From Lepidurus packardi (lineage: Eukaryota; Arthropoda; Branchiopoda; Notostraca; Triopsidae), in the NCBI GenBank assembly GCA_023053545.1, contig JAKZAN010000219.1, forward strand, positions 1 through 64,000: DNA of 64,000 nucleotides. The letters run 5' to 3'. The position numbers and the translations under genes were made by a program. Positions within the stretch are counted from its first letter, which is position 1; each line of letters begins with the position of its first letter. Under the pieces are notes generated by a model, which searched no databases, was not told the origin of the DNA, and saw only the letters and a list, made by a program, of their open reading frames with translations. This document shows positions 1 to 64,000 of the stretch, one piece after another.

Positions 1-1
1 G

Positions 2-540
2 CATCTAGGGGGATGGATATAGGCAGGACAATAAGCATTCAGAACCATCACACGCGCCTACTACAAAAACACCATTGGAGTCATCCTTGTATTCGACATC
101 AATGTCAGGAATACCTTTGAAAGTCTGGTGTCCTGGCTGGCAGAAATCAGAGAGCATTCGAACCCTGGGGTGCACATTGTAATAGTCGCTAACAAGACAG
201 ATATGGGTGCTCCTGTCGTCGATGAGGAAGAGCTGAAACAGCTCAAACTACCCTACTATTTTACCTCAGCGAGGACAGGCGACAACATCAATGACCCCTT
301 CATGGATCTCAGCGAGTCCATTCTAAAAAAAGCAGAGACTGGTGAGATCGACATATCCGACCCCGTAATATTACTACGCGAAACACAACCAACCCATTAA
401 AATCAAATTTGTAGAAATCTGGAGTGCGCAAAGGGTCAGTGAAAAATGGCACAGCCGGATCGAACCCAGACCGAAGTCAGATCAAGTTGACCGACCATAA
501 AAAAGACAAAGAACCAAAAAAGGGCAACTGCTCCTGTTGA
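2..540 (+). CDS. Rab-family small GTPase, 5' end cut by window
   Basis: Rab-type GTPase for vesicle traffic; only the C-terminal two thirds lies in the window. Visible are the G3 region (WIEAGQE at 14-34, normally WDTAGQE), the following FRTITRAYYK stretch typical of Rab2/4/14-like proteins, the G4 motif NKTD and the G5 motif TSARTG. A 50-nt intron (365-414, GTAATA...TTGTAG) joins the core to a basic tail ending NCSC, a CxC geranylgeranylation motif; without the splice the frame ends at 442 with no prenylation cysteines, so I prefer the spliced model. The Glu of GQE is a TAA codon (32-34), good evidence for UAR=Glu. Odd: the G3 Asp that helps hold Mg2+ is Ile here, so GTP hydrolysis may be altered. 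The catalytic Gln is kept. Family certain, subfamily not. Confidence 0.88.
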
Positions 541-637
541 GTAAAATCCGGAATACTACTTTTGATAGTCAAAGTTGTAACGTAACAGATAAGGCGCCAA
601 TGCTGGTGTCATCATGTTCAGTCCTATTGTGTTAGTT

Positions 638-1378
638 TCAATTAAAGTAAGGCGACATATCCAATTCAGAGGAGCGACTTTCGTTTCCCGAGATGTTGAC
701 ATGGTCTTTTGTGAGACTGATTAGCATGCTTTCCTCCTTTAGACTACCGATTGAACACATTGTCTAGGGTTTAGTCACAATTATCTTTAAGTCGTTGCTT
801 AACGAATTTTGAGACCGGGTACTCTAGGGCCTAGCACTTCCCACAGAGCTGAATGAGCTAAAATTATTCATTAAGTCAACTTGTTTGCTGGGTCGATAAT
901 TCGTGGGTTTTTCTTCTTGTTTGAGGAGTTGAGTAAACATCATGTTGCTCGAGGGTTTGTTCTTGGTAAACATCCTAGCACTCAGGGGAGCTTCATGGTT
1001 GGTAGTTGACCTTGGGAAGTTCAAAAGATTAGGCCTGTTTTCCTTATCACTATGCAGCTCGATTTGTTCGGTTTGTATTAGAGAGGAAAATTGAGCTTTC
1101 TCCAACTATATTTGGAAGAGTCCCTTTTTGGGAGGATTTTTAAGGGAGATGTTGGGGCTGAGGTTGGCACACTTGGTAGGAGTAGTCGTGTTGGGGGTAC
1201 GAGAAGTAAAACTCGTCGTATTCTTCTGGTATTGGCACTCCACGGGTTTGATGAGGATCGAGCGAGGACTGACAGGATTTCTAGCAAGTAGAGAACGAGG
1301 TTGTTCGGAAGCCGAGGGGATCGGGGACATAGGCCGTGTGAACCCATTTTGGTGTCTGATGTTGATTTTCGGGATCAT
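638..1378 (-). CDS. Hypothetical Ser/Pro/Asn-rich protein
   Basis: A single open frame of 246 codons on the minus strand, opened from two shorter pieces by reading the TAGs at 1106-1108 and 824-826 as sense, and closed by TGA at 638-640. The start is the ATG at 1376-1378. The product is low-complexity and probably disordered, rich in Ser, Pro, Asn, Thr and basic residues, with no membrane segment or recognisable domain. It converges with the Rab gene, about 100 nt from the Rab stop. I do not recognise it. Coding is supported by the long UGA-free frame and a natural terminator; the exact start is less sure. Confidence 0.5.
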
Positions 1379-1587
1379 TATGGGAGAGTGTATTGGCTGT
1401 TAAGGGCGGACAGACAGGCTTAATAATATAGCTGTTAAGACTAATGATAAAGTATTTCTATGTGACACAACAATATAGCGTAATCAGTCTTTTTACTGGC
1501 TAGTTGGGTCTGTGCCTTGTGTGCTAATCTGTCCTACGGAATGCTTGTTAAATGAATGAGGATGGAATAGCTATCGAAAATAACTCA

Positions 1588-3667
1588 TCAACGGTTGTTT
1601 TCTGCCTCATCCTTCATCTCATTTGCTGTCTCCACTTCTGAGAAGGCCAGCGGATGGCTTTCGAATACAATCTTCTCGAGCTCCTCCCTTCTGCGTTCTC
1701 CGAACAAACACGACTCAGGATTCGCTATGTGTTCCGCAGTCAGCAGGAACGGCGTGATGTCGAACTTATAGTTGTACTGGTAGCAGAAATCAATCCATAA
1801 CTCGTGCACAATTGGCACAACTGTCTACGACTGCTTCTTATTCAATTCCAAGTAAGTCTCTAAAATATCCTTCTCCCGCTCACTCAGCCTGTGCGGGGCT
1901 GACCGATGCTTGGGAGGAGGCGGTCCGGGTGCTACCCCCGTCTACTTCACACTGTCTCCAGTGTTAACTCTATCGCCTGTGTTCTGTATTTCGTTCGTCT
2001 CTATTACTTGCTCCTTGCTTACCTCAACAACCGGTAGAGGTACTGATGGCTCCTTGATTTACTACGGCGGCGTCGAAATCGTCGGAGGAAACCCAGCCAC
2101 GATGATAATCGGAGGGATGACTTCCTTGCTGATCTTGGGGTCCCATCGTTGGACGCCCATCTTGATGGTGCGATTGAAGGCCGACTTGCTGGCACTCATG
2201 AGGAGGAGGGCCTTGGTGCCTGCCAGTCTCTCATTTATAAGCGTGCGATTGACATTCCTCACATCGATCTGATTTAACTAGAATGTACTTCTGAGTTCTG
2301 CTTGCGCAGGGAGAAGAAACGCTCGTGTAGTTTCTGTAGATAGGCGGTGGTGTATCGCAGGTACTCGTCCTGTACCTGGGGTGTCTGGATGTGTCCGTAT
2401 CGTGTGCTGAAGAACTCGAAGTATTTCGTGTGCACCAGTCCGTCAGAAGCGTTCCATACCTTAGAATTTACCAGTTAAAAATTTATTAAAAAAATAGGCT
2501 TACATCTTTGCGATCGTCAAGGATGACCACGAAGTCTTCTCTGGTGGGCAAGATGTTCTTGAGGTTCTTCTTCATGAGGTCGCGGTCCTCATCCCGGGAG
2601 ATGATCCTCTTGGGAGTGAAGTACTGGTCGAACTCGGTCTTTGCATCAAAGATGTCTTTGTATGCCTGGCGAATATAGATGCAGATCTGTTCGGCATAGA
2701 TTCGGGTGCCTTTGGTGTAGATATAGATGTCGAAGAGGGGCATAACTCTGCGTAGGAATTACTTCAAGTAGGGTCTCATCTTGATGACTAGCTTTTCGAC
2801 TGCGAGGTCCACCACGAAATAATCCTCCAACTTGCTGACATCGAAATTTTCACTGGTCTGGGTGCAGTGCAGGATAGTGTTATCCAGGTCCAGGATGAGA
2901 ATTAGCTTGTTGCTTCCAAGCAGCTTCTGCGTGAATTATTGTTATACGAGCTCCATTGCACGCCCGCTGGTGACTATGTCCTTATTCTGCATGGTCAGTG
3001 GCACCATTCTATGCACTACTTCAGCGGGTTCAACATGTGCGAAACAGAAACAGCACACGTTCTGCTACACTTTCTCATGCTTGCACAGGGTCTTGCGGAC
3101 CTTGATGACGGGCTAGTCGCGTCCCTGGCATTGGAACAGTCCCGTTATTCTTCCCCGAAAATCGAAGGTTATTTCAGACTCTCCAATTCTACCCACTGTC
3201 TCTCCTTTCCCGAAATATTGATTCAGAGTCAGATTCCATTCAATGCCTGCCGACTCATTTGACACGCGGAAGTCTTTGCGAGCATAAGATATCCCCACTG
3301 GATCCTCGTACGTCCAAAGCTCCTGTCCACAGTATTGGCAGTAATCTATGCTGTTGGGTACACTATTGGGCTTAGGCAGATGGTCGCACTTTTCAAAGAT
3401 GAAGAGGTCACGTTGGAGCTTGGAAGTGCAGTCTTCAGGAGGTGGAGGAAAGACTTCAATGATTCTGCCAGCATAGGGGAGTAGGAGGGGGACGATCTCT
3501 GTCTCTTCTGTGTAGTGACCCACGGAGTCGTTGGGCCTATGGGTAGTGTGCTAGGATATTCGGAGAGAGAGTTGCAGTTCTGAGGACCAGTTGGCGAAGT
3601 AGAACTTGTAGTGGAAATGGTTGTCGGGCTGCTGGCGACAGAACATGCCTTTTCTGCGGGATCGCAT
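1588..3667 (-). CDS. FCP1: FCP1-like RNA polymerase II CTD phosphatase
   Basis: HAD-type serine phosphatase that dephosphorylates the RNA polymerase II C-terminal domain, nuclear. Three exons: 3667-2504, 2459-2289 and 2268-1588, giving 671 aa, near the usual FCP1 size. The N-terminal part has a CxxCG cysteine pair. The catalytic motif DLDNT lies at about 2876-2890, followed by MRPYLKEFL and IYTKGTRIYAE. The motif ILDDRKD continues across intron 1 (2460-2503, 44 nt) into VWNASDGL, then a helical region leads to a C-terminal BRCT domain (ending near WIDFCYQYN). The frame also needs a 20-nt GT-AG intron (2269-2288), after which IDVRNV matches the FCP1 core. The Glu of LKEF is TAA. The stop is TGA at 1588-1590. 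It is divergent from UBE4 over a 759-bp gap. Confidence 0.95.
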
Positions 3668-4426
3668 ATGGTGTTGTTCGTGTGTTTTATTATTTTGTTA
3701 GTTATTATAGGTGTTGGTAGAAGAGTGTGTAGGTTGGCATGTGTTGGTAAATAGAGTAGGCGAGTGAATAGAGAAAAATAGTTGAACCTTCGTTCAAATT
3801 TAAACTCAGCAACAGGGAAAAATCAACAACTTCTCAACATTCTTTTTGTTTGTTTAATTATTTGTTTTTTTCTCATTATTGTGTAGGATCCCACAAAAAT
3901 ATTTTATCAGTTTTTTTGTTAGCTCTCCGAGGTTCTACTCACTCTTTTTCACTACATTAAATCACACTATATCTCGGAATATGGGGTATCAACTCACACA
4001 TAACAGCATACATTTCCTACATTCTGCAGACTTCACGATGCAAAAACCTAAATCAGTCCTCGAAAAGACAGTTTACTGTGTGCTACTAAAGGGTAGCTTA
4101 TCCGCTAGAGAGTGCTGTTCGCATGCTATTCAGACAACAGTATTACTATTGCCAGACCGATTGGTGCAATTAGTAAAATTCGATCGAATCTGAAGAGTTA
4201 GCAGGGTTAATCGAAAATAGGAGCCTGTTATATTGACTGGTTTTACTTAAAAATAGTATAAAATATGATACTTTTGGCATACGGGATAGCTCTCGCCTAA
4301 AACCCAATTAAAGAGTACTAGCTGCGATCAAGATAGACATTGCCAGATTCCTCAGCATCAGCATTATAATTTCAAAGCAAACACAAAACTATAAATACTC
4401 ATAAATCATTCTCTTACAAAACTATC
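3668..4426. other. Intergenic region between divergent FCP1 and UBE4
   Basis: AT-rich spacer that must hold both promoters. I see poly-T/poly-A tracts and no recognisable gene. The longest ATG-led frame (3981-4193) has no homology I recognise and no UAR codons. Confidence 0.5.
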
Positions 4427-7400
4427 ATGAACCTCCTCGAAGAAGAACAGCTCCTCATCAAGGATATCTTCCTTGTCAGGGTCAACCCTACTCACACGGG
4501 CGACTCTCTCGTCACCCTCCCTCAGTTCCCCAAAGAAGTCGCCGTTCTCGGACGTACTCCTCTCTCTAAGACTAATCTATTTTAGCTAATGGTTCCCTCG
4601 TCGCCCACCCCACCTACTTCGACTCGCTCCTCATGGACCGCCTCCAAATCCCGTAACCACATAATCACTGACATCTGCATCTACGAGTATAGTAAGACGG
4701 ACATCTTGGTGTACCTGAGCGAGTGCATGGCACGCTGCAACTACCAGATCGAGAAGCCTTGGAACCAGACTCCCGCAGTCCAGAACTTCATCAAATACTC
4801 AATAGATGTACTACCTTACCCTCTGTTTACCATTTAACATTCCAGATCATCCGAAACTTTGTCTACATGGCTCTACTCGAAACTGATATTTTCCCCGATC
4901 AGGTCATCGATCTGGAAGCTGAAAAGTGTCCTGACCGTATTCTCGCAGTAACCATGCGTCTCATGACCTTCTTCGAGCTCAAAGGTTTCGACTTCGACAT
5001 CTTCAATTGTATCTACCCACGCATCGAGGAGGAGGATAAAGGGAATATGTTCTTAGAAAACGTCATTGAAGTCATGCTGGCTCGCCAGCGTTTCCAGACC
5101 ATTCTGGACAGCAAGTGCTTCTTCTACATAACAACCCTGGAGTCTCTGCTCTCAATTGAGGCCTTCAAAAAGAAATTCGTGAGCCTCCCTCGCACCCCTT
5201 TCTTCCCGGAAAACAAAGGACTGAAAGCACTCACAGGCAATATGATTGATATGGTGTCGCCCTTAGGACTGTTCGCCAGACCCTCAATAATGGGTTCACT
5301 CGCTTCATATAACCAATAAATGAAAGCAAACATGAATTTGGAAAGCCGAATCAACGAGGATTTCTAAAAGATCCACTTTAAGAAGGAGTTCGAAGCAAAG
5401 CTCAAGCACTATCACCAGGTAGAGGCCGAGTTTCTGGGCAGACTCAAAGAGATCTTCAAGGTGATGTTCAGAAAAGACACCCAAAGAATCATGTTCGAAT
5501 GGCTCTACGGAGTAGTAGTGGGAAACGTCACGCGTACAAAACTAGGCACGAGACTCAGCGGCGTAGTGACTACCAATATTTCCCACGATGGACTTATGCT
5601 GAACATCTACGAATGCATGCTGGAAATCAGTAAGATCATCCTAGACAAATCGCAGAACAAGTATGAGTCTATCGACCCGAACTACTTGCGGGTGAGTGAG
5701 AGGTTCAAGCTTACCCAATACGAACCCATCAATAACAAGAAGATCGAAGGGAATATACCCGCAAATGAGAAAACAGAATTCGGAACCATTACCGAGTTCT
5801 TCTTCCTGACCGTGGAGTTGCTGCATGTGGGGGTTATCCCTACCATGCACAACTTCTTTGAGGTCAACGAGACCAAAGATAGAATTGAGAACGAGATGAA
5901 GAAACTGGACAAGAAACACCCCCTCTATCAGAAGTACGAGTACGAATTGCGAAGATTCAAGATCAAGTACTTCCAATTCTATCTGGCACTCATGAACGAA
6001 ACAAAGATCAAAGCCTCCATGAAATTACTCGACATGGAGCTTACACTTATCCCAAGGTGGCTGGGCATCGATCCGACCAGACTCCGCAATAACCGCATCG
6101 AGGGCTACCAGAAGTCAATGCTGTTGAACTTTTTGCCCGAACATATGCTGAACAACATCTACGAGTTCCACCAGTTCTACATTCGGACGAAGGAGAACTA
6201 CATGGAAAACATGGGCGATGACCATATCCACTCAATTCTCAACATGACCTGTTTGCTGCTCAGCGAGAACGAGATCAGCTCCAACCCTTACGTCTGTGCC
6301 AACTTTATCGAGCTGCTCTTCTACTTCCTCATGGTGCCTAAGACCAACATGCCGCAGATCCTGGCGAACAATGAAGTGGCTCTCGAAAACATCACGATTG
6401 GACTGGTGCGATTCTATAGCGACATCGCCTTCACGGGCAGCAGCCACCAGTTCTACTCCAAATACAAATATAGGTACTACTGTAACAAGATATTCACAAC
6501 TCTCTGGAAACATGAATCCTATCGGCTGAAACTCAAGGAGATCCGCAAGACCGAGCACTTCGAGAGATTCATCAACATGGTCATGACTGACACTACTTAC
6601 TGCTTCGATGAGACAGCCGAGAAGTACGATAAGATCAAAGAGTATGAGTTCAAGAAGCAGAATAATTCCATGACTCAATAGGACATACGCAGCGAGGAAA
6701 TGATATCGGGTGCTATGCAGGCTAACCTCCAGCAGTCCACTAGCAACCTCAAGTTGCTACGCGATCTGTCCAGTTGGAGCCCCGAGACATTCCACTCATA
6801 AGCGTTCATCACTCTGGTAGTGCCTCTGATTAACAATATCCTGCGAACCCTCGTTGACCCGACTTCATTCGTGGCTAACCGACAAGTCACCAACAAGTAT
6901 AAGTTCGACAAAGCATTTGTATTGTCTGACACCCTGACGACCTACACCAACCTGAACATCGGAGAAGGGTTCGTCAGTGAGATCATCCGCGATGAGAGAT
7001 ACTATAAGAAGGAGTATTTCATCACAGCCCTTCAACGTGCAGGCAACGAGAACTGTACTGAGGAGAACGTGCTGGAGAAGTTCGAACAGCTGATCAACCA
7101 GTTGTCCAACGCTAAGAAGGAGGAGGAAGACGAGGAAATTTATGGTGAGATTCCCGACAAGTACCTGTGCAGCCTGATGACCTGCGTAAGAAATCATTAT
7201 TAATTGTGTAATGTAATGGTTCGTAGTTGATGAAAGACCCGGTGCTGCTACCGACATCTAACCACGTGGTTGAGCGTATGTACATCCACCGACACTTGCT
7301 GAACGACGAGCGAGACCCATTCAACCGCAAACCTTTACGTATTGCGGAGGTAGTGGAACAGTTGATACTGAAGAAAGAGATCGAAGAGTGGAAGAAGAAG

Positions 7401-13749: not shown

Positions 13750-13821
13750 GGGCGATTGGTCTAGTGGTATGATTCTTGTTTAGGGTACAAGAGGTCCCGG
13801 GTTCAATTCCCGGATCGCCCC
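13750..13821 (+). tRNA. tRNA-Pro (anticodon AGG)
   Basis: Cloverleaf read directly. The acceptor stem GGGCGAT pairs with ATCGCCC (13814-13820). The anticodon stem CTTGT/ACAAG (13775-13779/13787-13791) encloses the loop TTAGGGT with anticodon AGG at 13782-13784. The T stem ccggg/cccgg encloses TTCAATT. The internal A box is GGTCTAGTGGT and the B box is GGTTCAATTCC. A run of six T (13823-13828) follows as RNA polymerase III terminator. No intron. It is the only tRNA found; no tRNA-Glu with anticodon UUA or CUA, which would decode UAA/UAG, is in the window. Confidence 0.96.
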
Positions 13822-13916
13822 CTTTTTTACAATGTGCTACGTGTATACCATGTTTCGATAACAAAAAATTGGGTTTCCAAACCATATATACGTGTTCATA
13901 AGTGGGTAGGTTTTTG

Positions 13917-20907: not shown

Positions 20908-21188
20908 TGCTCTTCTTAATATGAGTGCAGAGTTTATAAGTGCAATTTTAAAGACAACGGTGGGAATCTATCAGGACTCCAGATCGTCCGAGACTGCACT
21001 TTCCAAAACACTGTCAATAATTCCAAAAGTCATCGGCCCTGGACAAAATAACACCAACCAAGATTAATGAAAGTTACTGTTTTTCGTGTACTCTTTAGCC
21101 AGAAATACTGGTTGGCCCAGCTCCATTCGATGGGGGTACGGTTACTGAATACTAGATACTCGAGAATTATAATTTATTAAAGAACTCC

Positions 21189-22818
21189 ATGAACAAACCT
21201 TCTGAACACAAACAAAAGGACAAGCAGCAGTCTGGACATGCAAAACTACGTGGCTCTATGGTCTACAAGACTATAGGACTTACCAAGATCAAAGACTCTG
21301 GCGTCCTCACTCCTGGCAGTGCCTCGGGCCACATCACCCAGAGCCATAGTAATATCAACCCCAAAGATGCAGTCAGCAGACCACGCACCTCCAAGCCCGA
21401 CACAGCTCAGCCCGTGCCCCGCCGAGAAGCGCTTTCAGGCGGCGTGAGCTCTAGTCAGTCCAGCAAAAACTTTCTGCAATCACAGCGACTGTCACCAAAA
21501 TTGCGGGTGAATGAGTTAAAATAATAAATAGTGGTTGATCCAAAAAAGAAGGCTCCCCTTATCCTTGCAGGCAATGGAGGAGTCAGCCCCAAGACTGTCC
21601 CCCGCAGGAAAGACGATGGGTCCTCTCTGCACAACCAAAGCACCAATAAGCGGGAAGACAAGTTCAAGGAAGAGATAAAGAAGAGTCTGGCACACGTAAT
21701 TAACGTCTACTACATGGAGAGAAAGCACTCGCCTATGGATGCGTCCTTTTCTAACCCTACCGACCTGGAGACTGCCAGCACAGACAACTTAGTATCGAAG
21801 CCTGATTTCAACTTCATTGAAGTGATAGGGCGTGGAGGATATGGAAAGGTATGGAAAGTTGAACACAAAAAGAGCCATAAACATTACGCTATGAAGGAAA
21901 TGTCAAAAGCAGCGATTATCATGAAGAAGAGCGCAGAAGGAGTTCAAAACTAAAAGCGACTGTTGGGACGCCTGAGTCATCCTTTCATCGCCAACATGGT
22001 GGCAGCATTCCACGACAGAGAAACTCTCTACCTAGTGATGGATCTGATGCCAGGTGGAGACTTAAGATACCACATTGGCGAGAACCAAACCTTCAATTAA
22101 GAGCAGACTCGTTTTTTCGTTGCGTGTATCGTGACTGCTCTCGAATATCTGCATCAGAAAAAGATAATACACAGGGATATCAAGCCGGAAAACCTTGTTC
22201 TGGACAGCAAAGGATACGTGCATGTGACTGACTTCGGGATCGCCAAAGTAGAACGGGACAATTCGGAACGGGATACCAGCGGCACTCCTGGCTACATGGG
22301 TAACCTCCATTCATCTAATTTACTCTCTGTGTTTTCTAGCACCCTAAGTTTTATGCAAGCAGCCCCATTCCTACTCTGCAGACTATTTTGCAGTGGGCGT
22401 CATCGCCTATGAGTTCATGATCGGCAGAAGGCCATACCTGGGCAAATCTAGGCATGAGATTAGGGAGGCTGTCCTCGCAAAACAGGTCCAGATCAAGAAA
22501 AGCGAGATCCCTCCGGGTTGGTCCATGGAAGCAGCAGACTTCGTCAACAAACTACTGCAGAGGCAGCCCAAAAGCAGATTGGGCAACAAGGGAGGCGTGA
22601 CTGAGCTGAAGGAGCACCCGTGGCTCAAAAAATATTCCTGGAAGAAACTTCTCAACAAGGAATTGATAGCCCCATTTATTCCGGAACAGGTGCAGTACGT
22701 GTAGATGTCGGACTACGAGTAGTACGACGAAGGACTGATGCAGTACAAAGTGCTGGAGAGACTAGAGGACCAGCGTGACCTGTTCGGAGACTATCACCAC
22801 AAGTTCAGTGGGTCGTGA
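21189..22818 (+). CDS. AGC-family protein kinase, STK32/YANK-like
   Basis: Ser/Thr kinase of 529 aa in two exons (21189-22299, 22340-22818) with a 40-nt intron. A disordered Ser/Pro-rich N-terminus of about 200 residues precedes a full kinase domain: glycine loop GRGGYGKV, catalytic Lys in YAMKE, hinge-side motif MPGGDLRYH (typical of STK32/YANK kinases), catalytic loop [11 protein letters not shown] in VTDFGIAK, then GTPGYM joined across the intron to the P+1/APE segment. The Glu of APE is a TAA codon (22345-22347), one of the strongest sites for UAR=Glu, as is TAA at 21951-21953 in VQNEKRLL. The C-lobe has [13 protein letters not shown]. All catalytic residues are present, so it is probably active. 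The start is the first ATG after an AT-rich leader. Confidence 0.93.
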
Positions 22819-27016: not shown

Positions 27017-28411
27017 TCAGTCTGTCAGCATACTCTCTCTGCAGACTCCGAACAGTTTCTAGATGTAATCGTTTCTCAGTCTTCCCGCAGGGTCTTCCTC
27101 CAACATCAGCTATCTGAATTCCGACCACTTGCTAAGCACACGATCGAAGTCATACAGCTCCTTCGTGAAGTGCTTTCCCAAGTGTGGTCTTCCTCCGTAT
27201 TTCGCTAGAATAGATTAGATTTAGTAGAGTAGCTCTAGAGAACCCTTCACAAAACTACCATCTTCAGCGAGGTACACGAGGAATCCTATTTGGAAACTTT
27301 GCTGTTGATGGGTGCTGGACAGCCAGGCCTCGGAGGCGCCAGTGAATCGCAGGATAAATGGATAATGCATGGCAGTCTTATGTTTAGAGTGCCACTCTCT
27401 GAGATCGTGCATGACATCCCTGTAGTATTTGACGTCGATAGCGATTTAGCAGTTGATCTGGGGAGCGGGAATGCCCTTGTTCATGATTTGGTAGACGTTG
27501 CCCACAACATCGGATACTACTTTGAAGCGCTGAAGGGTCTAGAGACACGAGTTCTTCTTCTCGCGATCTTTTGTGTCATGAGCGAGCTTATCCTCTAATT
27601 TGTTGATTGTCTGTTACATCTTGTTATTGCCTTAGGTAAGACTCAGCAACTCGGAACTATTGTTTTCGTACATCACCAGCTCATTTGATGAGCACTGGTC
27701 AATGTGCCAGATCTGGACCTCGTCAGTCCAAGGGAACCACCATGCCTTGGCTTGTTCCTTCTCGTAGTTTAGATTTACGAAGTTATCCAAAAGGTCATCG
27801 TACGAAGTAGTATACTTCATACATCGATAGATTTTATTGTCGATTAGTCTGAGAGTCACACGCGTGATAATACCCAGGCAACCTAAACTAGTAAGATAGG
27901 CTCCGAAATGAGGATGGCTGCGGTCTAAGGTCTTGAATGTCCCGGCAAGTGTCAGAACTTTCAGCTACGTAACCGCATCAGCGATTGTTGCTTGCCCCAT
28001 GCCCTGACCATGGGTACCTGTTGAAATGGCACCCGCGATGGTCTGGATAGCAATGACTCCAGGAGCAGCAGGCAACATCTTGTTCTGGGAAAGAATGAAC
28101 TGGAAAATAGTTTGGAGAGGGGTGCCACCATATACCTCGATGTGGTCACTAGTAAAATTGATGATTCCAGATAGGGCAGACATGTCAAGGAGTATTGCTT
28201 ATTGACTGACAGAGCATATGGGTCCGTAGGTGAGTTTAGTGCCGATGGGCTTGATTTGGGCGTGGGGATTGTTCTGTAGTATTTACGCGAGGCATTATTC
28301 GGAAGTAGGAGCAAGGACTTGTTTTTGTGAGCCAATGACGTTGGTCTTGGACCAGTTGTAGACTAGGGATGCTGATTCCTGGATTTGGAGGTGTTCAAAT
28401 GTCTAAGCCAT
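27017..28411 (-). CDS. FAD-linked aldonolactone oxidase (gulono/arabinonolactone oxidase-like)
   Basis: 464-aa flavoenzyme of the vanillyl-alcohol-oxidase fold, single exon, ATG 28409-28411 to TGA 27017-27019. The N-terminal FAD-binding domain begins NWSKTNVIGSQKQVLAPTSE and contains DHIEVYGGTPL and the pyrophosphate-binding TIAGAISTGTHGQGMG. The C-terminal ALO domain has the family motif KYGGRPHLGKHF followed by DPAGRLRNDYIEKLFG. Members oxidise L-gulono-, L-galactono- or D-arabinono-1,4-lactone to ascorbate or erythroascorbate. No signal peptide is obvious. The substrate cannot be chosen from sequence alone. Confidence 0.92.
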
Positions 28412-28924
28412 GCTTCTATCTGGTGTTGCTGACCTTGGGGAATGGGTTGGTACTTTTATATTTATTGCCTGAGTTTTGTGTTTAAATTAACTTAATGGGT
28501 ACGCATCGCCAGGTTTTTAAGAGTTCCCCCCTTTAATTATGTATATAGGATTTCATGAGGTTCGTTACCTTTTCTGACGATCCCGCAAAATGTCAACTTT
28601 TTCTCTAATCAACATCCTATTAATTCAATGCAGTCATTGTCTGATTAGACCTCCCACTATTTGATTTTTTCAGAATATTTCTGACAGACTCCATAATCTC
28701 AACTCCGGCCTACTTTACCTTTTCTTGAGTTCTCTGTCTCAGAAAATTTGACTTCGTTTCCAATCTCCGTTATTTCAGCTTTTTCTGATAACCCCAGCCT
28801 CATTCAACATCCAAAAACATATACGTGTTGCCTTTAACCGACATTCAAAACCTGTGAAGTATGACGCAGAAGTGCGTACGACTGCTTAGAAGAAATAGAA
28901 AGGATATATTCGGTTCTTTTCAAA
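28412..28924. other. Intergenic between divergent genes
   Basis: 512-nt spacer between the oxidase start and the next plus-strand start. T-rich stretches; no ORF with support and no RNA gene seen. Confidence 0.45.
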
Positions 28925-36522: not shown

Positions 36523-36683
36523 GTTGGGCGAGTGAAGCTGCTCAGAGTAGGAATAGAAGCCAAGTAAATACCCGAATAAATAGATAACAGGATTTCCGAA
36601 AAGGGATAATAATCGAAAAGACATATATGTTATAGAATAGAATGGGGGCAAAATATAGATATACATTTGAAAACATCGAATCC

Positions 36684-39600: not shown

Positions 39601-40048
39601 TGCAGCTTTGGAGCTGACGCTATAACTATTGGTTGACACCCTGTTGATGTTCGAGGGCTAACTGCAGATCTTGCTTTTGGGCAGAGATTGTTTCGAGGGT
39701 GCGACGGTGTTGGTCGGTGATGGCACCTCCGGAGTTTTCCCGAAGATAATCTACCTGCACTTTCAATTGCTTGTTGCTGTTAAGTAGGGTGCTGATTTAT
39801 TTGAGTGCCTTCTGATATTTGACTTGGATCTGCCCGAGCTCATCGAAACCCCTACTGCGACTCAGCTGTTCATGGAGGTTGGAGTTTTCAGCCTGGAGCA
39901 TGTGCAGTTGATGAAGGAGTTGTTCTTGAGTGAGGGGGTCGTCCTGCTCTTCATCCTGGCCGTAGAGAAAGTGTCGGATTTAATTCTATCGTGCAGCAGC
40001 AGAGTTGGAAGAAGGAAAGGATTGGTGGTAATTGTCTTGATTGTGCAT
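36684..40048 (-). CDS. Long coiled-coil protein (1094 aa)
   Basis: Three exons: 40048-37083, 37040-36935, 36896-36684 (introns 42 and 38 nt), 1095 codons in total. The large exon has no in-frame TGA in the stretches I checked. The protein starts with an Asn/Ser/Ala-rich leader, then runs as coiled coil for about 950 residues, very rich in Gln, Glu, Leu and Lys, with a short Ser-rich break around 38000-38050. It ends in a Tyr/Ser/Asn-rich tail (YSYSYGGVD ... NQQY). Likely cytoskeletal (basal body, cortex or cilium), by composition only. The second intron is well supported because only its removal gives the Tyr-rich tail with a TGA. Confidence 0.85.
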
Positions 40049-40430
40049 GGGCAGTCGATGGGGGTTGTTTGGGAGAATGTGGTTAAGTGTTTTTATAAAT
40101 ATATATGTATATAGTATGCAGGCGTCAGTTAAAGGGTTATTTTTCCTTATCGGATTGGTAATATGGGGGTGTCAATCTGGGTAGATTCAAGGTTTTAATA
40201 TGGAAACCCATGATCTAAGAATTTCGGCCAACTGTCAGTACTGTGTTCTGATGGCCCACAGCTTCACTCCTATTCCAGTGAGGAATGCCAGCAGTGTCCA
40301 AACTACCTAGTTATAGTTAATCCTTTATTTTTTAGATTGGATGACTGTGTCAGTCCTTTTCCTTGAGCTTCTTTCATCGGCCTTTAAAAATATAATTTAT
40401 TAAGTTTTTTACAGACTCTCTCCTCTTACC
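40049..40430. other. Intergenic between divergent genes
   Basis: 382-nt spacer containing promoters for the coiled-coil and calpain-like genes; AT-rich, no gene or repeat recognised. Confidence 0.5.
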
Positions 40431-42236
40431 ATGGGCAACATCAAAGACACGTGCGCCACCAGGAACACACTCATGACATAGTCACACACCAAAGTCATCG
40501 GTCGATTTGAAATCCCTACCCTCGCCCTTCTCAATAAATATCCCATAAACACCAATGCAGCCGAAACGCAGCCCCATCTCCTTCGTGTTTCCCAAGAATA
40601 ACAGAACACATTTGCCTCCATCATCAATGCTAACCGAGACACAGAGTTCAAGGACCAGAATTTCCCGCCGCAGCCTGGCTGGGTTCGTCTTTCGCGACTT
40701 TATAACTACAGCAAAGGAGCCCCTCTCATGTATTATGAAAAAGGCCTTGAAACTTTGGTCCAACACGAACCCGAACTGTGTTACTTCTCAGCAGTAATGT
40801 GCTACCTCGCCCAACGCTTCCAAAATCTCCCCAAGACCGTTGGCACGAACATCTCGAAAAATGGGGTATTCGGTATAGTCATGCACCCTTTTGGAGTCCG
40901 TACTCTTGTTATCGTTGACGACTCTGTCCCCAGCCAGAAAGACAAGATTCTCTATGCAGGGTCTCGCAGAGTGGAACTATGGTCTTACCTTTTCGAAAAG
41001 GCTTGGGCTAAACTCCTCGGAGGATACAGAAATGCCCTAGGCTGGTCCCCAGAGGATGCCATCGAATAAACCCTAGGAGTGCCAGGATACTCGTACGCTA
41101 TCGATGAAAGGAGTTTCGACGATTTGAACAAGATGGCCTTCGATTTCAGGAGCCAGAACATGTGCGTAACGATAACCGCAAAGTCTGATGAGCAACTACC
41201 GGCGGGATAGCTTTTTGGAAGGCAAGTGTTTTTCCTGTAAAAAGTCATAGATCAAGAGACACTAAAACTGAGGTGCCCCTATTAGAATTTCAAATTCAAC
41301 GGGAGGATGGTGAGAGACAACAGCCAGGATTACGCAGTGTACCGCAAGGAAATGCTTGAAAACCCCAGCATCATTTATGTCAACATCGAGGATATCAAGA
41401 ACTACTTCGAATTCTGGACTGTAGGTTTCGTGAAGGAGATGTATGAGCAAAGATGGCAGATGTTCAATTGCGGTAGTGAGCCAGCCTATTTCGAGTTCCA
41501 TGTCAGCCGGAACGAATCTATAAATCTGCGTGTGGTCCAGATGTTCGAGGGGTACGTCCGCAACAACTCTAACTACCGGTACAGCTCAGTGTATATCCGT
41601 CTGTTCAGCTGTGAGACTGGCGAGCTGATTAGCGAGGGTTGCAGGAGGGCCCTCTACTTCGTCAAAGCAGCAAGTAAATACCCTGATCTTTGATGATTTT
41701 TAGATGTGTTCGAGAACATTTTCACGACTCTGCCACCGGGGAACTATTTCATGCGTGTGGAAATAGACTGGCTGTTCCCCGACAAGATCCACTAGGCTTG
41801 TCTGACCAGCTACAGTAACTCTGCACACGACCTTCGTCTGTACAATCTGAAAGACCATCCTGAATAAGGTAACTCCCCCACCTTCACACTATAAACTGAT
41901 ATCTGTACAGCTAAGAGAAAATATATGGGTTACCTCTAAAATATGTTTGTCGACAATCCTGAAGTCAAAGAATTGGAATCTCTACGCTACTGCACAAAGT
42001 GGCTCAAGAATGCAGTGCTTATCTATTTGGATAATCCCACTCCCAGCCTCATGAAGGTTATAGTAAACTTAAAGAACAGCGTCAATCTGGTACCCGTGCC
42101 TGTGGGGGAGTACGACTTCAGCAAGAAGACTCTGCACGTGGAAATAGCAGGCCTGTCAAAGAAGGTGATCGAACTGAGGAAGGAGAACGTGTTCGGTTAA
42201 GGGCAGATCGGGAGCTACAGCCTGTAACTTTTGTGA
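40431..42236 (+). CDS. Calpain-like cysteine protease homologue, catalytic triad incomplete
   Basis: 577 aa in three exons (40431-41673, 41704-41868, 41911-42236; introns 30 and 42 nt). The papain-like calpain core is recognisable: PPQPGWVRLSR, the Cys motif PELCYFSAVM (Cys codon 40779-40781), TLVIVDDSVPSQKDKILYAG, and the ELWSYLFEKAWAKLLGGY block. The second half has LKLRCPYENFKFNG where active calpains have LRNPWG.FEW.G. The catalytic His position (GHAYS region) reads GRQVFF with Gln at 41223-41225, and the catalytic Asn is Cys (41274-41276). The C-terminus has calpain-type beta-sandwich sequence with TLPPGNYFMRVEIDW. Probably a pseudoprotease. No Ca2+ EF-hands are seen. Confidence 0.88.
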
Positions 42237-42537: not shown

Positions 42538-42921
42538 ATGACAACTATCGAGAATGCGACACTGTTTTTAGACATGGGCGCTGTCATAGTTACTCTGACT
42601 CTTTTTCTATACTCTATCCCCATTTCATCATCGATATCCATATTGCTGCATGTCACGAACGTGCTGGCTACGAGTATTCATTCATGGATTGTGTAGACTC
42701 AGTTTTTGGAGGTGGTAGAACACCGTGTCGGGAATACTGTAAAGAGTATGCAGCAGAAAGCAGCAGGAAGGGTTTATGCTCAAGTCCTCGTGATATAAAA
42801 GAATAAAATACTGTGCCGGTTTCCCTGGCACGAAATATCCAAGTTGCGAGACTTGCCATTTGACACTTTTAATATCCCATCGGACTGTATAATAACTATA
42901 CAAACCCAAAACAAGTGTTGA
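42538..42921 (+). CDS. Small membrane protein (127 aa), unknown
   Basis: The frame runs from ATG 42538 through TAG (42694-42696) and TAA (42799-42801), both read as Glu, to TGA 42919-42921, only 39 nt before the valyl-tRNA synthetase start. An N-terminal hydrophobic stretch ([20 protein letters not shown] and following) probably makes one or two membrane spans. The C-terminal ~70 residues look like a soluble mixed domain with [18 protein letters not shown]. No family recognised. A longer minus-strand ORF over the same DNA overlaps the synthetase gene and is less credible. Confidence 0.45.
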
Positions 42922-42960
42922 CACTCCCTCTGACCGATCTAGATGTAAACTCACGACTAA

Positions 42961-45900
42961 ATGTCCAGACTCTTCGCCGCTCGATACTTCGTCCAGACGG
43001 TGGCCAAAAAAAAGAAAGTCGCCTCCTACCTCCTCGAACAGCACGTGGAGGAAGCTGAGCTCCCACTTGCCGAAGCTATCGCTCTCAAGCGTGATGCCTC
43101 CAAGATTGAGGCTTCCTACAAACCCAAGAAGGTCGAGAAGTACTGGAGCGAGTTCTGGGAAACCAAGTAAGCCGTCCTTTTCTTCATATCGCCACCATCA
43201 AACTGTTTACAGTAAATTCTTCCACGCCGACAACCAAACAACCAATCCCAAAAAATTCGTGATCTGCTTGCCTCCTCCCAACGTCACAGGCTATCTTCAC
43301 ATTGGTCACTCCCTGACCACTGCGATCGAAGACTCCCTTTCCAGATGGAAGAGAATGTCTGGCTTCGAGACTCTCTACGTACCTGGCACTGATCACGCAG
43401 GTATCGCAACTCAAAGCGTCGTCGAGAAGCAGCTCATGAAGCTAGAGAATAAGACAAGACATGACTACACCAGAGAAGAATTTATGTCTAAGATTTGGGA
43501 ATGGAAATAGAAGCATGGTAATGGTATCCTTAATCAATTACGCAGAACCGGTTCCAGTCTGGACTGGGAAAGGACAGTATTCACTATGGATGATAAACTC
43601 TCCCGTGCCGTCAAAGAAGCGTTCGTCCGCCTCTACGACCGCGGACTCATTTACAGAGCCAACAGGCTCGTCAACTGGAGCTCTATCCTTAAGACTGCCA
43701 TTTCGGATATTTAAGTCGATTACGAAGAGCTCAAGGGAAGAACTATGATGGCAGTTCCTGGCTACGAACACAAGGTCGAGTTCGGAGTCATCATCTATTT
43801 CGCCTACAAACTCAAGGAAGATCCTAGCAAATAAATCGTTGTGGCTACCACCCGTATCGAAACCATGCTTGGTGATACTGCCGTGGCTGTCCATCCTGAA
43901 GACCCAAGATATAAGGACTTTGTTGGGAAGGAACTCGTGCATCCATTCATCCCCGACAGGAAGATGGTTGTGATTACTGACACTATGGTTGAGAAGGACT
44001 ACGGAAGTGGTGCCGTGAAGATTACCCCAGCCCATGACCCTAACGATTACGAATGTGGAAAGAGACACAAGCTTGAGTTCATCAATATCTTAACTGATGA
44101 TGGTATGATTAACCAGAATGGTGGAAAGTACCAGGGATTGAAAAGATTTGCCTGCAGAAAAATAATCGAAGAAGATCTCAAAAAAATTGGACTTTGGAAG
44201 GAGAAAAAGGATAACCCTATGAGACTCGCTTTCTGCCAAAGATCGAAGGATGTGGTCGAACCTATTATCAGACCTCAATGGTGGGTCAACTGCTCCGAGA
44301 TCTCAAAGCCCATGATCGAAGCAGTCAAGACAAAGGAGCTTGAAATCTTGCCCTCAGAGTATGAACATACTTGGTACAGATGGATTGAGGGCCTCAGAGA
44401 CTGGTGCATTAGCAGACAGCTCTGGTGGGGACACAGAATTCCTGCCTATCAAGTGTCTGATGCTTCCAAGCCTGATGTTGCCTCTGATAACTGGGTTGTG
44501 GGCAGAACCGAGGCTGAAGCCAGAGAAAGAGGAGCTAAATTGCTCAACATTCCTCTTGAACAAGTGAAGCTCGAACAAGATCCTGATGTGCTTGATACCT
44601 GGTTTAGTTCCGGACTGTTCCCCTTCTCTGTGCTGAGCTGGCCTGATGAAGAACATCCCGACTTCAAGCAGTTCTTCCCCAATAGTATTTTGGAGACTGG
44701 CCACGATATCCTGTTCTTCTGGGTAGCCCGTATGGTTATGATGAGTCTTTGGTTGACCGACAAACTTCCATTCAAGACAGTTTTCTTGCACCCAATTGTG
44801 TGTGATAGTGAGGGCAATAAGATGTCTAAATCGAGAGGTAACGTTATCGACCCTCTTGAAGTCATCGAGGGTACTAACCTTGACCACCTGATCAGTAAAA
44901 TTAGAAGCGGCAACCTTCCTAAAGGTGAACAAGAAGTCTCTATTAGAAAAGCCCAGCACGAGTTCCCTGATGGTATTCCTGAATGCGGCTCTGACGCTCT
45001 CAGATTCTGTCTGCTTGCCTATATGAAGCAGTCAAGAAGCATCAATCTGGACATTAAGGTCATTGAGTCTTACAGACAATTCTGCAACAAGATATGGAAC
45101 AGCTTTAAGTTTGCTCTTCCTCACTTGCAGGATGTCAAGGACTACAGCATAACCTCTGTGGACCCTGCTAACTGCACCTTCCTCAACGCTTGGATCCTCG
45201 CAAAGCTTAACAAAGCCATCAAGGGAGTCAATCAGAGCATGGAAAAGTATGTCTTCGGTGACGCTACTACCTACTTCTATAACTTCTGGCTCTATGAACT
45301 CTGTGATGTGTATCTCGAAGCCACCAAGGCCGTATACACAGGCAAGGACCAGAAAGCTATTGAAGAAACTAACCATGCTCTTTTCACCTGTATCGAAAGT
45401 GGTCTGAGATTGGTGCACCCCATGATGCCCTTCTTATCTGAAGAGCTCTACCAAAAGCTTCCTCAATACCCCAGCAAGAAGGAGTCAGTTTCTGTTCATC
45501 CCTATCCTAATTCCCTCGAAGAAATCTTCCCGCTGAGCGAGACTATGCTGCACAGATTTGATCTGGTCGAGAAGGAATTCGAATCCGTCAACAAGGTACT
45601 ACTCATTCATTAATTCCAAATTATCTCATTTTTAGACTGCTGCTGCCATCCGTAAAATGTGCTCTAATGTCAACCTCCCTTCACACATCAGACCCAAAGT
45701 TTACCTCATCTCCGAAGACTCTGTCCTCATCAGAGAGACTGCCCTACTAGCTACCCTGTCTAAGTGTTCCGATGTGACCTTGATAGGTTCTGAGGCTGAA
45801 GTACCCAAAGGCTGCAGCACTACTAACCAGTCTACTACCCGTATCTTCGTGGCTTTGAAGGAGTACATTGACTTCGATAAGGAAACAAAGAGACTGGAAA

Positions 45901-51389: not shown

Positions 51390-51500
51390 TGGTATTATGC
51401 TTATGTCAATACGTATTGTATGTAATAATCATCCGAAAGATGTCTAATTGATTAATAATTTTCGCCATCCCTAAAAATTTATATTACTTAGATTTCGTAA

Positions 51501-54284
51501 ATGATCAATTCTGTGAGCCGATCCGCCGGAATCCCCCAGCTTATCTTCCAGTCCATTCCTCAGCAGGAGAACACTTTCCTTATAATTACCCAGGGATCCA
51601 TCAGTCTCAGCCATGTCTTAGCTTATACTTTACTCAATATGCGTCCCCAGGAACTCTATCTTTTTGTGGACTGGCCTGACAATTAGATGTACTTCTGCAA
51701 CTCTAACTTGAAGCAACTAAGGACTCAACTGTTGCTCTCAGGAAACCATGATGTGGGTACTCTAGCGGATCTGACAAAGATCAACACTCTGACTAAATAA
51801 AAAAGGAAGTAATGCTATATTAGGGGAGGGGCCTATTCTGTATCGTCGACAGTGATGCTGCTAGATCTTGTGGGGCAGAGTGAACTGAGTCCTCATCTAG
51901 TGTCTAAGATCTTCTTTAGAGATGCATAGTTTGTCTAAAGCTACAAAGAAGACCTGCCTTGGATTCAGGAGCTACTTGTAAAACGCAATCCCGACATCCA
52001 AACAGTGCTAATATGCAACAACGCCCACTACTTAACAGTCTAAAGCTTTGAAAAACTATACCGGATGTTTCTCATCAAGAAAGTTGTAATATGGCCTTAC
52101 GGGAGGAAAGAGATTCTTGACACTATTGAACGATACCGCCAGGAAAAACGAGATTTCTAGGAGACATAGTACAGTGTGCAGTATACGAAATCCGAAGCAA
52201 GGATGCAGGAGTTACTCTAAATCCTCTTGAAGTCTTTGGAGTCTGCTTCCAGGAACAGCAAGAAAGGTCCCTCTTAAAACGCCAAGACTTATTATGAAAT
52301 CTTTATGAAGTAGAAGCAAGACTTTATAAAAAATGCAGTTGGCTATGGCAACAATCAGCAGATGACTGCACTCAATCAAGTCCGGAGTCTCATGTTCAGA
52401 CTACCCAATGCGAGTCCTCTGGATTTGTATCAACAGGTACTCGCAAAACTGTGCTCCAAGGAAGAAATGAGTATCTGGTCAGGGTGCGCCAATACAGTTG
52501 ATGAGAGCATTGACGAACTAACTAAGTTGTGCTTCAGCAAACTGTTTGATGTTAAAGTGACCCAGATTCAGCCTAACCTTGTTAAGGTGAAGGCAGGAGA
52601 AAAGGAACATACGATTAACTGTCTTTACGAATTCGAGTTCACCTATCCAAGTCCTAAGAAAATGAATGTCCTTGTTTCAATCCTTGACAAGATATCAGAA
52701 CAATATGAGCAGGAGTGGATGAGTAATGGCCGGACACCTATGACTGTATGGGTGCACACTGCAGATCAGAATATAAGCAGTACTCTCCATGAAGAACTCA
52801 GAGGAAGGGTATATGGGTGCTCACAGTTTCTGAAGTTGAGAAGCATTTTCCAGTTGTTGATTAGGCAGTCGGAGTAAAGGGCAGGAAAAATAAATGCAAT
52901 CGTGAATAGGAAATACTATGGAAGTAAGAAGTAGGGAGGGCCAGTGACCGACTTGGAGGAAAATAGGAACTTGTTTATGTAAGCACTATTCGACGAGCTC
53001 AAGTAGTTTTTCCAAGAAGTAGACTTCTTCGAAGAAAAGAACATGATTACCCAGCCAGAGTAAACTGCACAAAAGTTCCGTCTTAGCCAGACCTTGCATG
53101 ACAATTCTAGACCATCACTTGGAGGTGTAGCTCAGCAGGAGCTGGAGAAAAGAGCTCTGAACCTGGTAGCCCTCAAGGAGACCCTAATCAACAAGAAATT
53201 CAAATACATCAACATAGAGACTTTGGATTTCAGCTGTATGGAGAAAGGAATCTTGAATGATTCTTTGGAAATCATTTGGAAGCAAAAACTACTGGTCATC
53301 GTCAACTATTCTTCCGATATTGGGATGGTTGCAGGGTTTATCAATCAATATCAGCCCACCCAAGCCATACTCTACAATCCCAAGGTTTCCGTCCTCAGGT
53401 ACCTATACCTTTCCAAAGATCAAGGCGTGAACACCGAATCTTTGAAGAAGCTACATGTCATCAATGTCAAGAAATCCATTTAGGAATCCATCTACATCCA
53501 CTCGGTAGTCAAGGAAGATCAGATGTTCTGGGAGATATCCAAGCGACGGGTGAACATGCCTGTCTACAACGAAGACATCAATGGTCGGGTAGAAATAATT
53601 CAGGAAGACAGGAAGTACAGGGATACTCGGGTTGCTTTGAATAAAATGGAGAACACTGAAAATCTTGCGCTCTTCAATATGGGCCAACGGTTGGCACCGA
53701 AAAGGCACTATTATGTGATTGTCGACAAAAGATAGTTCAAGTCAGGATTGCCTTCAGCCCTATACCACAAAGGGTTTGAAGTTGTACCGATCTTTCTGAA
53801 AGTAGGAGATTACATCCTGGCGAACGACGTGGCTATTTAGAGGAAAGCCGTAGAGACTAAGGATATCCATGAGTCTCTACGTTCAGGAAGACTCGAAGAC
53901 CAAGTCTCAAAGATGCACAAGAAATTTAGCCACTCCTACATACTTATCTAGTTCACTGACAAAAGCAACTTCAAACTGGAGAGACTAAGCCAATTTCAAG
54001 CCTACAATAAGACTGAAACCTATAACTACAATGTCAGACGAGGACTGATGGGTATTCTAAAGAAATATCCACGAGTCAAAGTGATATGGAGCAGGAGTTG
54101 CGAAGAGACAGCCTAGTACTTCAAATTTTTGAAGCAAGGAAAGATTGAACCCGACATAAGCCTGTTCCAGAAGGAGGAATAAAGCATTTAGTAGCCCGAA
54201 GTGAGAATTGAAGAGACTAAGAAACAAGAAAAACTTGATCCAGTACTAAACTAGCTTCCCCAGGAGGATCGGGTATCACTATGA
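51501..54284 (+). CDS. ERCC4: XPF/Rad1-type structure-specific endonuclease subunit
   Basis: 927 aa, one exon. XPF with ERCC1 cuts 5' of bulky DNA lesions and at branched DNA. The N-terminal half matches the inactive SF2 helicase-like region: GGAYSVSSTVMLLDLVGQSEL, then SFEKLYRMFLIKKVVIWPYG. The C-terminal ERCC4 nuclease domain reads YYVIVDKRQFKSGLPSAL, EVVPIFLKVGDYIL, then AIERK with the Glu encoded by TAG (53838-53840), and YILIEFTD with Glu from TAG (53949-53951); both are invariant-type Glu. Odd: the acidic residue after ERK comes two positions later than in ERKx3D, and the protein stops soon after the nuclease domain, so the C-terminal (HhH)2 dimerisation domain is absent. The start is the first ATG after the upstream TGA. 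Confidence 0.92.
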
Positions 54285-59194: not shown

Positions 59195-60018
<824 letters not shown>

Positions 60019-60282
60019 GGGTGTGTATATCGATCTATATGGAGAAAGTACTGATTAAATTGATACTGCAAATTAAAATAAAATTGTAAGGGGTAGACTC
60101 AAATAGTATTATTTTATTTGTTGGGTGCCAAATATAGAGGAGTCTTGGGGGGTTTATGCAAGGATTGGACCATTAAACAAGTACTCACGGGATATATCGT
60201 GTTACTTACCCGATGAAACATAGAGCCTGAAAATAAATACAAAAATGGAGCAAGTAGAAAAGCAATGGGAAGATAAGTGCAA

Positions 60283-61578: not shown

Positions 61579-61843
61579 AAGTACTTCGGGATATTTATTT
61601 TTGGTAGTGGGTCGTAGCAGCGTTTCTCTGACTTGAGTTTAGTATTAAAACAAATAACAGCAACTAATTTACAATAAAAGTTTGATAAAATATTCATGAC
61701 CAATATAAACATGTATAAATAATTTATAATTGATAAAAAAGAGGGAGTTTAGAAATCATTATTCCGATCAAATCGCACAACCTTATATTTCTTTAATCTT
61801 AGCACAACTCCTCTCTCTCTGCAGTTTTGAGATACTTCTCAAC

Positions 61844-63665
61844 ATGGGCAACGCCTGCAAATCTCTAGAACCCTTTTCCTAAACTCTTAACAATTGTTCA
61901 TAGTGTAGGGAGCCTCTTGCTAAATCCCACTTCCTTACTTTCTCCAAATGTACCCACGTACTCTGTAAACTTTGTTGTTCCCGGCTCAAAAGCTAGTCAA
62001 CCTGTCCCCTCAGCCACGATGCCTCCAACACACACAGCCCTACACACTGGTTCTCTAGAGCCTATCCACAACTACAGACAGTTCTGCAAAAAGAAGCACC
62101 AAATGACCTGGTCTGCCTAAACCAACACCTGTCGAAAATGTCTCCTGTAACTGCCTTCTTTCCAATGCAAAGTGTGTAATGAATATCTCTGTACGTATTG
62201 CTCCAAAAAATATTCAGAACTGCGCAAGGATAAAAACAGGAACATATGTCCCAACCTCCACTTGATGAACTGGATTCCAGCTGCGTATAAGGAGACCTGT
62301 CAACTGTGTGGCCAGAAAGATTCTGGTTGGAGGTGTGCTGACTGCTAGTACTTCTCCTGCTCGAGTTGTTCAAATACTTTATGGGAATCTACAAAGTGCC
62401 CTAACAGACACGCAACCAAGTGGAGAGAGTACCAAATTGTCATGCGAGAAGTGTAAAACCTCATCACACGGCTGGTATTGCAGGGAATGCGAGTACATGT
62501 ACTGTTCAACTTGCTCACACACAACCCTATAACAAATCAAATGTCCGAACCAGCACAAAACAGTCTTCAAACAGTCAGCACAATGTATCAGATGCAGCCT
62601 ATAAACTCAAGTAATGGTGTGCCAGGAATGCGACTACAACTTCTGCACCAAATGCTAACTAATGAAAGTTTACTACCGATAGGTCAGGGGGTGGGCAGAA
62701 GGAATACTGATAGGGATTATGTGACTCGCCGACATCGTTAGAACCAGGACTTGACGATCGGGAAAATGGGTTGTCTACAAAAAAGCATAATAGAATTATA
62801 TTCAAGCACAGTGTTACTCGTCCGATGCAGATGATGATCCCTTTATGGAGGACGGTAATGGGAACTCTGAATAGCTAAAATTAGAAAAACTCGTCAAAGA
62901 ACTGATCTACGAAGGCAGGCAATACACCAGAAAAAACTGTCATGCAGAAGCCATCGCCAATTATCGACAAGTCCTCTAAATCGATCAGAAAAACACTGAA
63001 GTGCTCCTTGAGCTGGGTGCTTCGTTGGAGCTCAATAACGATCATGTTGAAGCACTCGATGTCTATAAAAGGATACATCATATATAGAGCAACAATACAC
63101 AAGGCCTCAAAAAAGCCATCCTCCTGATGCTCAGAACTTCTAATCTCTAACAAGCAGAACTCTCTTAGGTGGGACACTCTCACTCCCGAGATGGCACAAA
63201 GTATGTATCTACTCTGTACCAAACTATTACTACGCAGAGCCAGAAGAGACCAGGACAAGATACTTGATGGCTCAGCTTCTGCTCCAACAAAAGAAGTATA
63301 GTGACTCTCTTAAGCAGCTGAACAAAGCAGCTGCGGAAGAAGAAAAGAGAGTTTTAGAGACCCGCGACTATACATTGCTCATCCATATTTTGGACAAAAT
63401 AAAGACAAACATGAACGAACTGGGAACCTATGAATCTGGACTCGGGGTTGTTGATCGGATTATCGCTCTGTACTCTGATCCCCAATAAATGATTAGTGGT
63501 TTCTCGATCGAGCATTGGCTACTCGTCAAGGGGAACCAGTTTGAGCTCATGAACCAACCAACCAAAGCCGTGGAAACCTACTACTTAATTTCATCTGAAA
63601 AGGATATCAAACTCTATAAAAAAGCCCAGGAAAGGATCAATAGAATAGAAGGATTGAACTTATGA
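61844..63665 (+). CDS. RING / tandem Cys-rich repeat / TPR protein, with frame breaks
   Basis: Probably one gene. It starts MGNACKS with a RING-like finger (CSECREPL, then KCTHVLCKLCC and CPL). Next come four tandem modules of pattern C-x2-C ... C-x2-C-x-[YF]-x2-C-x2-C, most followed by C-P-N-x-H. The C-terminal third is TPR-like helices (YLMAQLLLQQKKYSDSLKQL) ending at TGA 63663-63665. A 46-nt (62668-62713) and a 20-nt (62811-62830) intron join modules to TPR. Two further switches, near 62010 and 62430, each need +1 nt and have no credible intron. A third join between 63169 and 63239 is unresolved. It could be a ubiquitin ligase. Sequence errors, frameshifting or gene decay are all possible. 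Confidence 0.55.
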
Positions 63666-63753
63666 AGAAAAGAAATCTATAATAAATCGAGGGTGTTTTA
63701 TATGGAACACTAACAGCAATTTGGAGCAGTTATTAATGTGTATGTTCTCACCA

Positions 63754-64000
63754 TCAGCCAGTGAGGAAGAGAGTGTTGACTAGGACCAATTCAGGCTTGG
63801 AGGTTTCAGGAGTGCCGTCAGCCTGCCAGTTCGAAAATAGGCGTTGGTGCTCTTGCCAATCCACCATTATTTTGCCCTTGACTGCTTCTTTGATGAGCGT
63901 ATTCATCTTCTTTTCGATCTTGAATGTTCTCTTGAGGGTGTTTTTGAACTGCTGCAAAGTGTTGAGATCGCCTCCGATCATAGGGAGGATCTACTGCTCT
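63754..64000 (-). CDS. Protein of unknown function, 5' end beyond window
   Basis: The C-terminal 81 residues of a minus-strand gene; the stop is TGA 63754-63756 and the frame is still open at the window edge, with a TAG at 63991-63993 read as Glu. The visible part is helical and basic (KNTLKRTFKIEKKMNTL), then KIMVDWQEHQRLFSNW, and a hydrophobic end LVLVNTLFLTG. An ATG at 63979-63981 is probably internal. No family can be named from this fragment. Convergent with the RING/TPR gene. Confidence 0.5.

Follow-up and report, generated by a model that had tools for sequence, protein, structure and literature searches.

We analyzed a 64,000-nucleotide stretch of DNA (hereafter, the window), positions 1 to 64,000 of contig JAKZAN010000219.1 (C208) in assembly GCA_023053545.1, deposited as Lepidurus packardi, in which the codons UAA and UAG (together, UAR) appear to encode glutamate and UGA to be the stop codon, as a preliminary description of the sequence had proposed. 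Many long frames of the window are open only when UAA and UAG are read through: in the seven pieces into which it was divided (six of 10 kb and one of 4 kb), the longest frame spans 129-592 codons under the standard code and 490-1091 codons with UGA as the sole stop. The genes that bear on the identity of UAR codons are as follows (Pfam profiles, bit scores and Protein Data Bank chains in brackets).

2..200, plus strand: start of a Rab-like GTPase, with UAA 32-34 at the Glu of GQE and UAG 20-22 at the Thr of WDTAGQE, which we take to be the Rab motif.
2231..3793, minus strand: putative FCP1-like phosphatase frame, so named in the preliminary description, with UAA 2759-2761 in LK-UAA-F.
4672..7230, plus strand: UFD2-type ubiquitin elongation factor (PF10408, 314.9 bits; 9kht).
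20925..22299, plus strand: first exon of a protein kinase, part of frame 20925-22412 (PF00069, 155.6 bits; 4fr4).
22300..22339, plus strand: 40-nt intron, GT...AG, of the kinase gene.
22340..22818, plus strand: next exon of the kinase (PF00069, 59.9 bits for frame 22228-22818), with UAA 22345-22347 at the Glu of APE.
27017..28552, minus strand: FAD-linked lactone oxidase, ALO (PF04030, PF01565; 2vfr), with UAR at 12 of 422 domain codons.
31846..34008, plus strand: protein kinase, ULK3/PLK4-like by its best chains (PF00069, 232.9 bits; 6fdy), with UAG 32584-32586 in FEHC.
42794..45793, plus strand: valyl-tRNA synthetase (PF00133, 457.3 bits; 1gax).
51390..54284, plus strand: XPF/ERCC4 endonuclease (PF02732, 82.8 bits with UAR as Glu and 73.3 as Gln; human XPF, 6sxa).

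The preliminary description held that UAR codons fall at near-invariant Glu sites. Read directly, the codons at the eight sites it located are all TAA (32-34, 22345-22347, 43712-43714, 43832-43834) or TAG (32584-32586, 43508-43510, 53838-53840, 53949-53951), and the LKEF site of FCP1, cited without coordinates, was found as TAA at complement(2759-2761), in the context MRPYLK-UAA-FLRRVMPLFDIYIYTKG. Five of the six sites that could be aligned blind met Glu, namely WKEK (UAG 43508-43510) and ISDIE (UAA 43712-43714) of the valyl-tRNA synthetase, FEHC of the kinase, and ERK and LIEF of XPF; the claim stands for these, and not for the UAA that precedes IVVATTRIE in the synthetase. The Rab GQE, kinase APE and FCP1 LKEF sites were judged by eye against motifs as we presume them to be. 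Splicing of the 40-nt intron 22300-22339 joins GTPGYM to APEVL, with the Glu of APE encoded by UAA (by eye), and in the preceding exon UAA occupies the alpha-C Glu column and also occurs at TFNxEQ. In XPF, five UAG codons occupy five Glu columns, one within the ERK motif.

For a column-by-column comparison, UAA and UAG were translated blind as X and the frames were aligned with Protein Data Bank chains, taking one best chain per protein and leaving out further chains. Seven alignments were usable: the valyl-tRNA synthetase, two kinases, XPF, the lactone oxidase, UFD2, and a phosphoglucomutase encoded on C176, another contig of the assembly. A 9-bit N-terminal segment of XPF, with six UAR columns of which two are Glu by eye, was left out of the count. 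Glu was met in 14 of 28 UAR columns (binomial P about 4e-10, assuming a background of 6.5%), Ala, Arg and Pro in two each, and Phe, Asp, Gly, Thr, Gln, Leu, Lys and Ser in one each. The Glu columns include the XPF ERK motif and the kinase alpha-C Glu, with the roles that we presume for them. Codons of known meaning in the same alignments served as controls: GAA/GAG (GAR) met Glu in 55 of 160 columns, of the 75 columns of CAA/CAG (CAR), 17 held Gln and 5 held Glu, and AAA/AAG (AAR) met Lys in 50 of 187. For UAR, the share of Glu columns shows no difference from that of GAR (P 0.14), whereas it is distinct from the CAR share (P 3e-6).

The two codons behave alike when taken separately. UAG met Glu in 9 of 15 columns and Gln in none; UAA met Glu in 5 of 13, Gln in one and Lys in none, a Glu fraction that differs from those of CAR (P 0.005) and AAR (P 0.011). 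Ranking of amino acids by BLOSUM62 placed Glu first and Gln next for both UAA (21 and 8) and UAG (41 and 16).

We also compared Pfam bit scores of frames in which UAR was translated as Glu or as Gln, with a single family chosen for each stretch. Families that overlapped the chosen ones were not counted, whether they favoured Glu (ResIII, DEAD, and PK_Tyr_Ser-Thr of the window kinases) or Gln (VWA_2, two PK_Tyr_Ser-Thr, Kinase-like); the Gln scoring did not extend to Surp, PWI and SHIPPO proteins or to TPR_SYO1. Over the resulting 29 matches, Glu exceeded Gln by 41.8 bits, with 19 matches higher, 8 lower and 2 tied, and with the largest gains in ERCC4 (9.5 bits) and a kinase (6.7 bits). In 20 Pfam-supported stretches of 5,700 codons, there were 38 UAA, 32 UAG, 193 GAA, 177 GAG, 76 CAA and 121 CAG codons; thus, UAR makes up 70 of 440 presumed Glu codons, about one in six. 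Column counts and Pfam scores agree, for each codon separately, with the proposal that UAA and UAG encode glutamate. It is therefore well supported, at the level of predicted proteins, that UAR codons behave like Glu codons in conserved proteins.

These data also bear on two other meanings of UAR. If UAR were Gln, as in the common ciliate code (table 6), the Glu sites would be fortuitous. Gln is the usual reassignment of UAR in ciliates (PMC10553269), the ULK3-like kinase has the single Gln column, and 8 of the 29 matches, together with some of the left-out overlaps (VWA_2, two PK_Tyr_Ser-Thr), score slightly higher with Gln. Against this, Gln is met once and Glu 14 times among 28 columns, the log-likelihood summed over UAA and UAG is -79.1 with the CAR column profile versus -60.8 with the GAR profile, and Gln loses the 41.8 bits given above. 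We rejected UAR as Gln on the column counts and Pfam scores and consider it very unlikely; the contrast between CAR (Gln in 17 of 75) and UAR (1 of 28) bears out the earlier observation that Gln is encoded by CAA/CAG in these proteins.

The second alternative, UAA as Lys with UAG as Glu, is the code of Oligohymenophorea sp. PL0344, which belongs to the same ciliate class and with which UAG as Glu is consistent (PMC10553269). In the 10 proteins (of 20 scored) to which it was applied, this code falls 24.8 bits below Glu for both codons over 16 Pfam matches, of which 7 are worse, 6 equal and 3 slightly better with Lys. In view of this cost and of the absence of Lys from the 13 UAA columns, 5 of which are Glu, the PL0344 code was rejected; the alpha-C Glu and APE Glu of the kinase, both UAA, also oppose it, and there is very little chance that it applies here.

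The proposal that UGA is the stop codon fits the data as well, since whole conserved domains lie in frames that end at UGA: tRNA-synt_1 is complete to position 414 of 414 and ALO covers 1-257 of 258, both without UGA, and the alignment of the phosphoglucomutase reaches the final residue of 1kfi, with UGA as the very next codon of the gene. These domains and this end rule out UGA as a common sense codon. They also make two further codes extremely unlikely: that of Blastocrithidia, where UAR is Glu, UGA is Trp and no codon is reserved as a stop, and one in which UAR serves as both sense and stop. In favour of these codes, UAR is Glu in Blastocrithidia as well (PMC12153298), and some genes might use UAR in both roles.

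The assembly comprises 108,557,554 bases in 344 contigs, of which six (C1-C6) are of chromosome scale, 10.7-14.0 Mb each. The 4-mer profile of the window differs from those of C1-C6 (r 0.49-0.67, one 10-kb stretch per contig), and window-like profiles (r 0.87-0.92) were found in 5 of 20 sampled stretches, on C87, C121, C176, C207 and C209, which have the same UGA-only frames as the window. Stretch L049 (r 0.69) was kept out of the ciliate set, and L016 and L020 (r 0.83 and 0.82; 3 kb) were taken in. Two of the six C1-C6 stretches (L031 and L032) contain retroelement domains in standard-code frames, which we read as BEL/Pao and Ty3. These six contigs have the appearance of chromosomes from a eukaryote with a small genome, which carried the ciliate or was sampled alongside it. 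Their number and small size might conceivably point to a tardigrade with its epibiont Pyxidium tardigradum, a species already described in the literature; a search of this organism for PF01484 gave no match, which is weak evidence against a nematode, as control genomes likewise gave none. C42 encodes a gyrase/topoisomerase IV subunit A, has three clustered tRNA genes and therefore looks bacterial. Given the differing profile of C1-C6, the bacterial-looking C42 and the window-like contigs, the sample was a mixed one in which the ciliate was sequenced as a guest. A narrow search of open-licence papers, in the parts consulted, found no account of peritrich DNA as a co-sequenced guest.

The assignment to a ciliate has the support of a single gene, the phosphoglucomutase on the window-like C176, the predicted product of which scores 760.5 bits against 1kfi, presumably the Paramecium enzyme, and 517.4 bits against the next chain. 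Within ciliates, the lineage would follow from the code: Peritrichia are the only group with UAR as Glu in the sections of PMC10553269 used here. The peritrich label, taken from the code alone, is thus likely and fits the published record. An alternative is a non-peritrich oligohymenophorean in which this code arose independently; the class has at least three codes (PMC10553269). The single origin given there for ciliate UAR as Glu, and parsimony, make this improbable. A separate lineage near PL0344 that reached UAR as Glu independently is likewise quite doubtful; if true, it would show stepwise capture of two stop codons.

Overall, we consider it highly probable that the window is ciliate nuclear DNA, most likely of a peritrich or a close relative, co-sequenced with another eukaryote and bacteria, and that its genes follow table 30, in which UAA and UAG stand for glutamate and UGA is the stop. 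Several observations weigh against this interpretation. Half of the UAR columns hold residues other than Glu, yet this matches the GAR control. The UAA at 43832-43834 lies opposite Phe, beside a gap, in 1gax, and was overcalled in the preliminary description, which did not mention that UAG 20-22 coincides with the Thr of the Rab motif, a position at which one would not expect Glu. The eight Pfam matches that are slightly better with Gln differ by at most 1.3 bits. UGA is absent from the 5,700 domain codons, but UGA-free frames had been chosen beforehand, and therefore this zero count proves nothing by itself. The ciliate identity depends on a single gene, on a window-like contig. Finally, a Glu/Gln-type tRNA pattern with a YUA anticodon had one match in the whole assembly, in C2, and showed no suppressor tRNA; the pattern also misses ordinary tRNA-Glu in the ciliate-like contigs.

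From what is known of ciliates, tRNA-Glu species whose anticodons are UUA and CUA would decode UAA and UAG, and the release factor eRF1 would be narrowed to UGA. It should be noted that, with the anticodons of ordinary tRNA-Glu, the control pattern matched 24 places, of which 22 lie in C1-C6 and 2 in C55, a contig that we take as bacterial; it found none in the ciliate-like contigs, so the absence of YUA forms there is uninformative. When, as a further control, the D-arm was made stricter and either Gln or Glu anticodons were allowed, 12 matches resulted, including Gln anticodons in the small contigs C218 and C225, which we take as ciliate on size only. Patterns combining anticodon and T-loop were at or below the reversed control (UUA, 67 versus 68; CUA, 19 versus 29); 8 UUA and 6 CUA matches lay outside C1-C6, and those in C80 and C173 are tRNA-Arg. 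The assembly may be without suppressor tRNA genes. For comparison, 12 UUA and 10 CUA suppressor genes are reported among the 320 tRNA genes of PL0344 (PMC10553269).

The window contains four further features.

13750..13822, plus strand: tRNA-Pro (AGG), the sole tRNA found in the window.
15088-17550, minus strand: pesticin-type lysozyme (PF16754, 39.5 bits) and von Willebrand A domain (69.1 bits) in one frame; the product is possibly a bacteria-digesting enzyme of bacterial origin.
34576..36876, minus strand: tubulin-tyrosine ligase family protein (PF03133, 116 bits).
40041..41693, plus strand: calpain-family protease (PF00648, 72.8 bits), ending in tandem UGA UGA.

Tandem in-frame UGA UGA ends two of the frames examined, that of the calpain-family protease (40041-41693, plus strand) and one in stretch L046 (5381-8194, minus strand). 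Tandem UGA is enriched in PL0344 (PMC10553269). In the organism of C1-C6, repeated matches of the type TTTAAACCGG...GTTCAAACC at about 405,000-447,000 of C4 suggest a satellite array, and there are clusters of tRNA-Glu-like pattern matches and of tRNA-Lys genes (C2, 5,429,872-5,432,253; C4, 4,462,647-4,463,155).

The code has already been published for peritrichs, and the present case is a further record, nothing new in kind. A study by Sanchez-Silva in 2003 reportedly described UAA as glutamate. UAR as Glu is known from Campanella umbellaria and Carchesium polypinum, with a single origin in Peritrichia (PMC10553269), and the codes of these two species were predicted from transcriptomes (PMC4967479). 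The published peritrichs named in these sources are thus transcriptomes, and here we have genomic contigs, with a short intron and gene neighbours, which are a possible genomic resource for questions of release factor, tRNA and codon capture. They also call for caution with mixed assemblies: the contig of the window and at least five sampled others need translation with table 30, and ciliate contigs must stay out of the gene set of the other organism.

Compared with the peritrich nuclear code (NCBI table 30), we found no difference: UAA and UAG are Glu and UGA is stop in both. Our sequence, however, comes from genomic DNA within a mixed assembly, and its peritrich lineage is likely at most. 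PL0344 has UAG as Glu and UGA as stop in common with the window, whereas UAA is Lys there and Glu here (PMC10553269). In the common ciliate code of Tetrahymena and Paramecium (table 6), UAR is likewise sense and UGA the stop, with UAR as Gln instead of Glu. The nonstop code of Blastocrithidia also has UAR as Glu; in contrast to the window, UGA is Trp there and UAA also serves as stop (PMC12153298).

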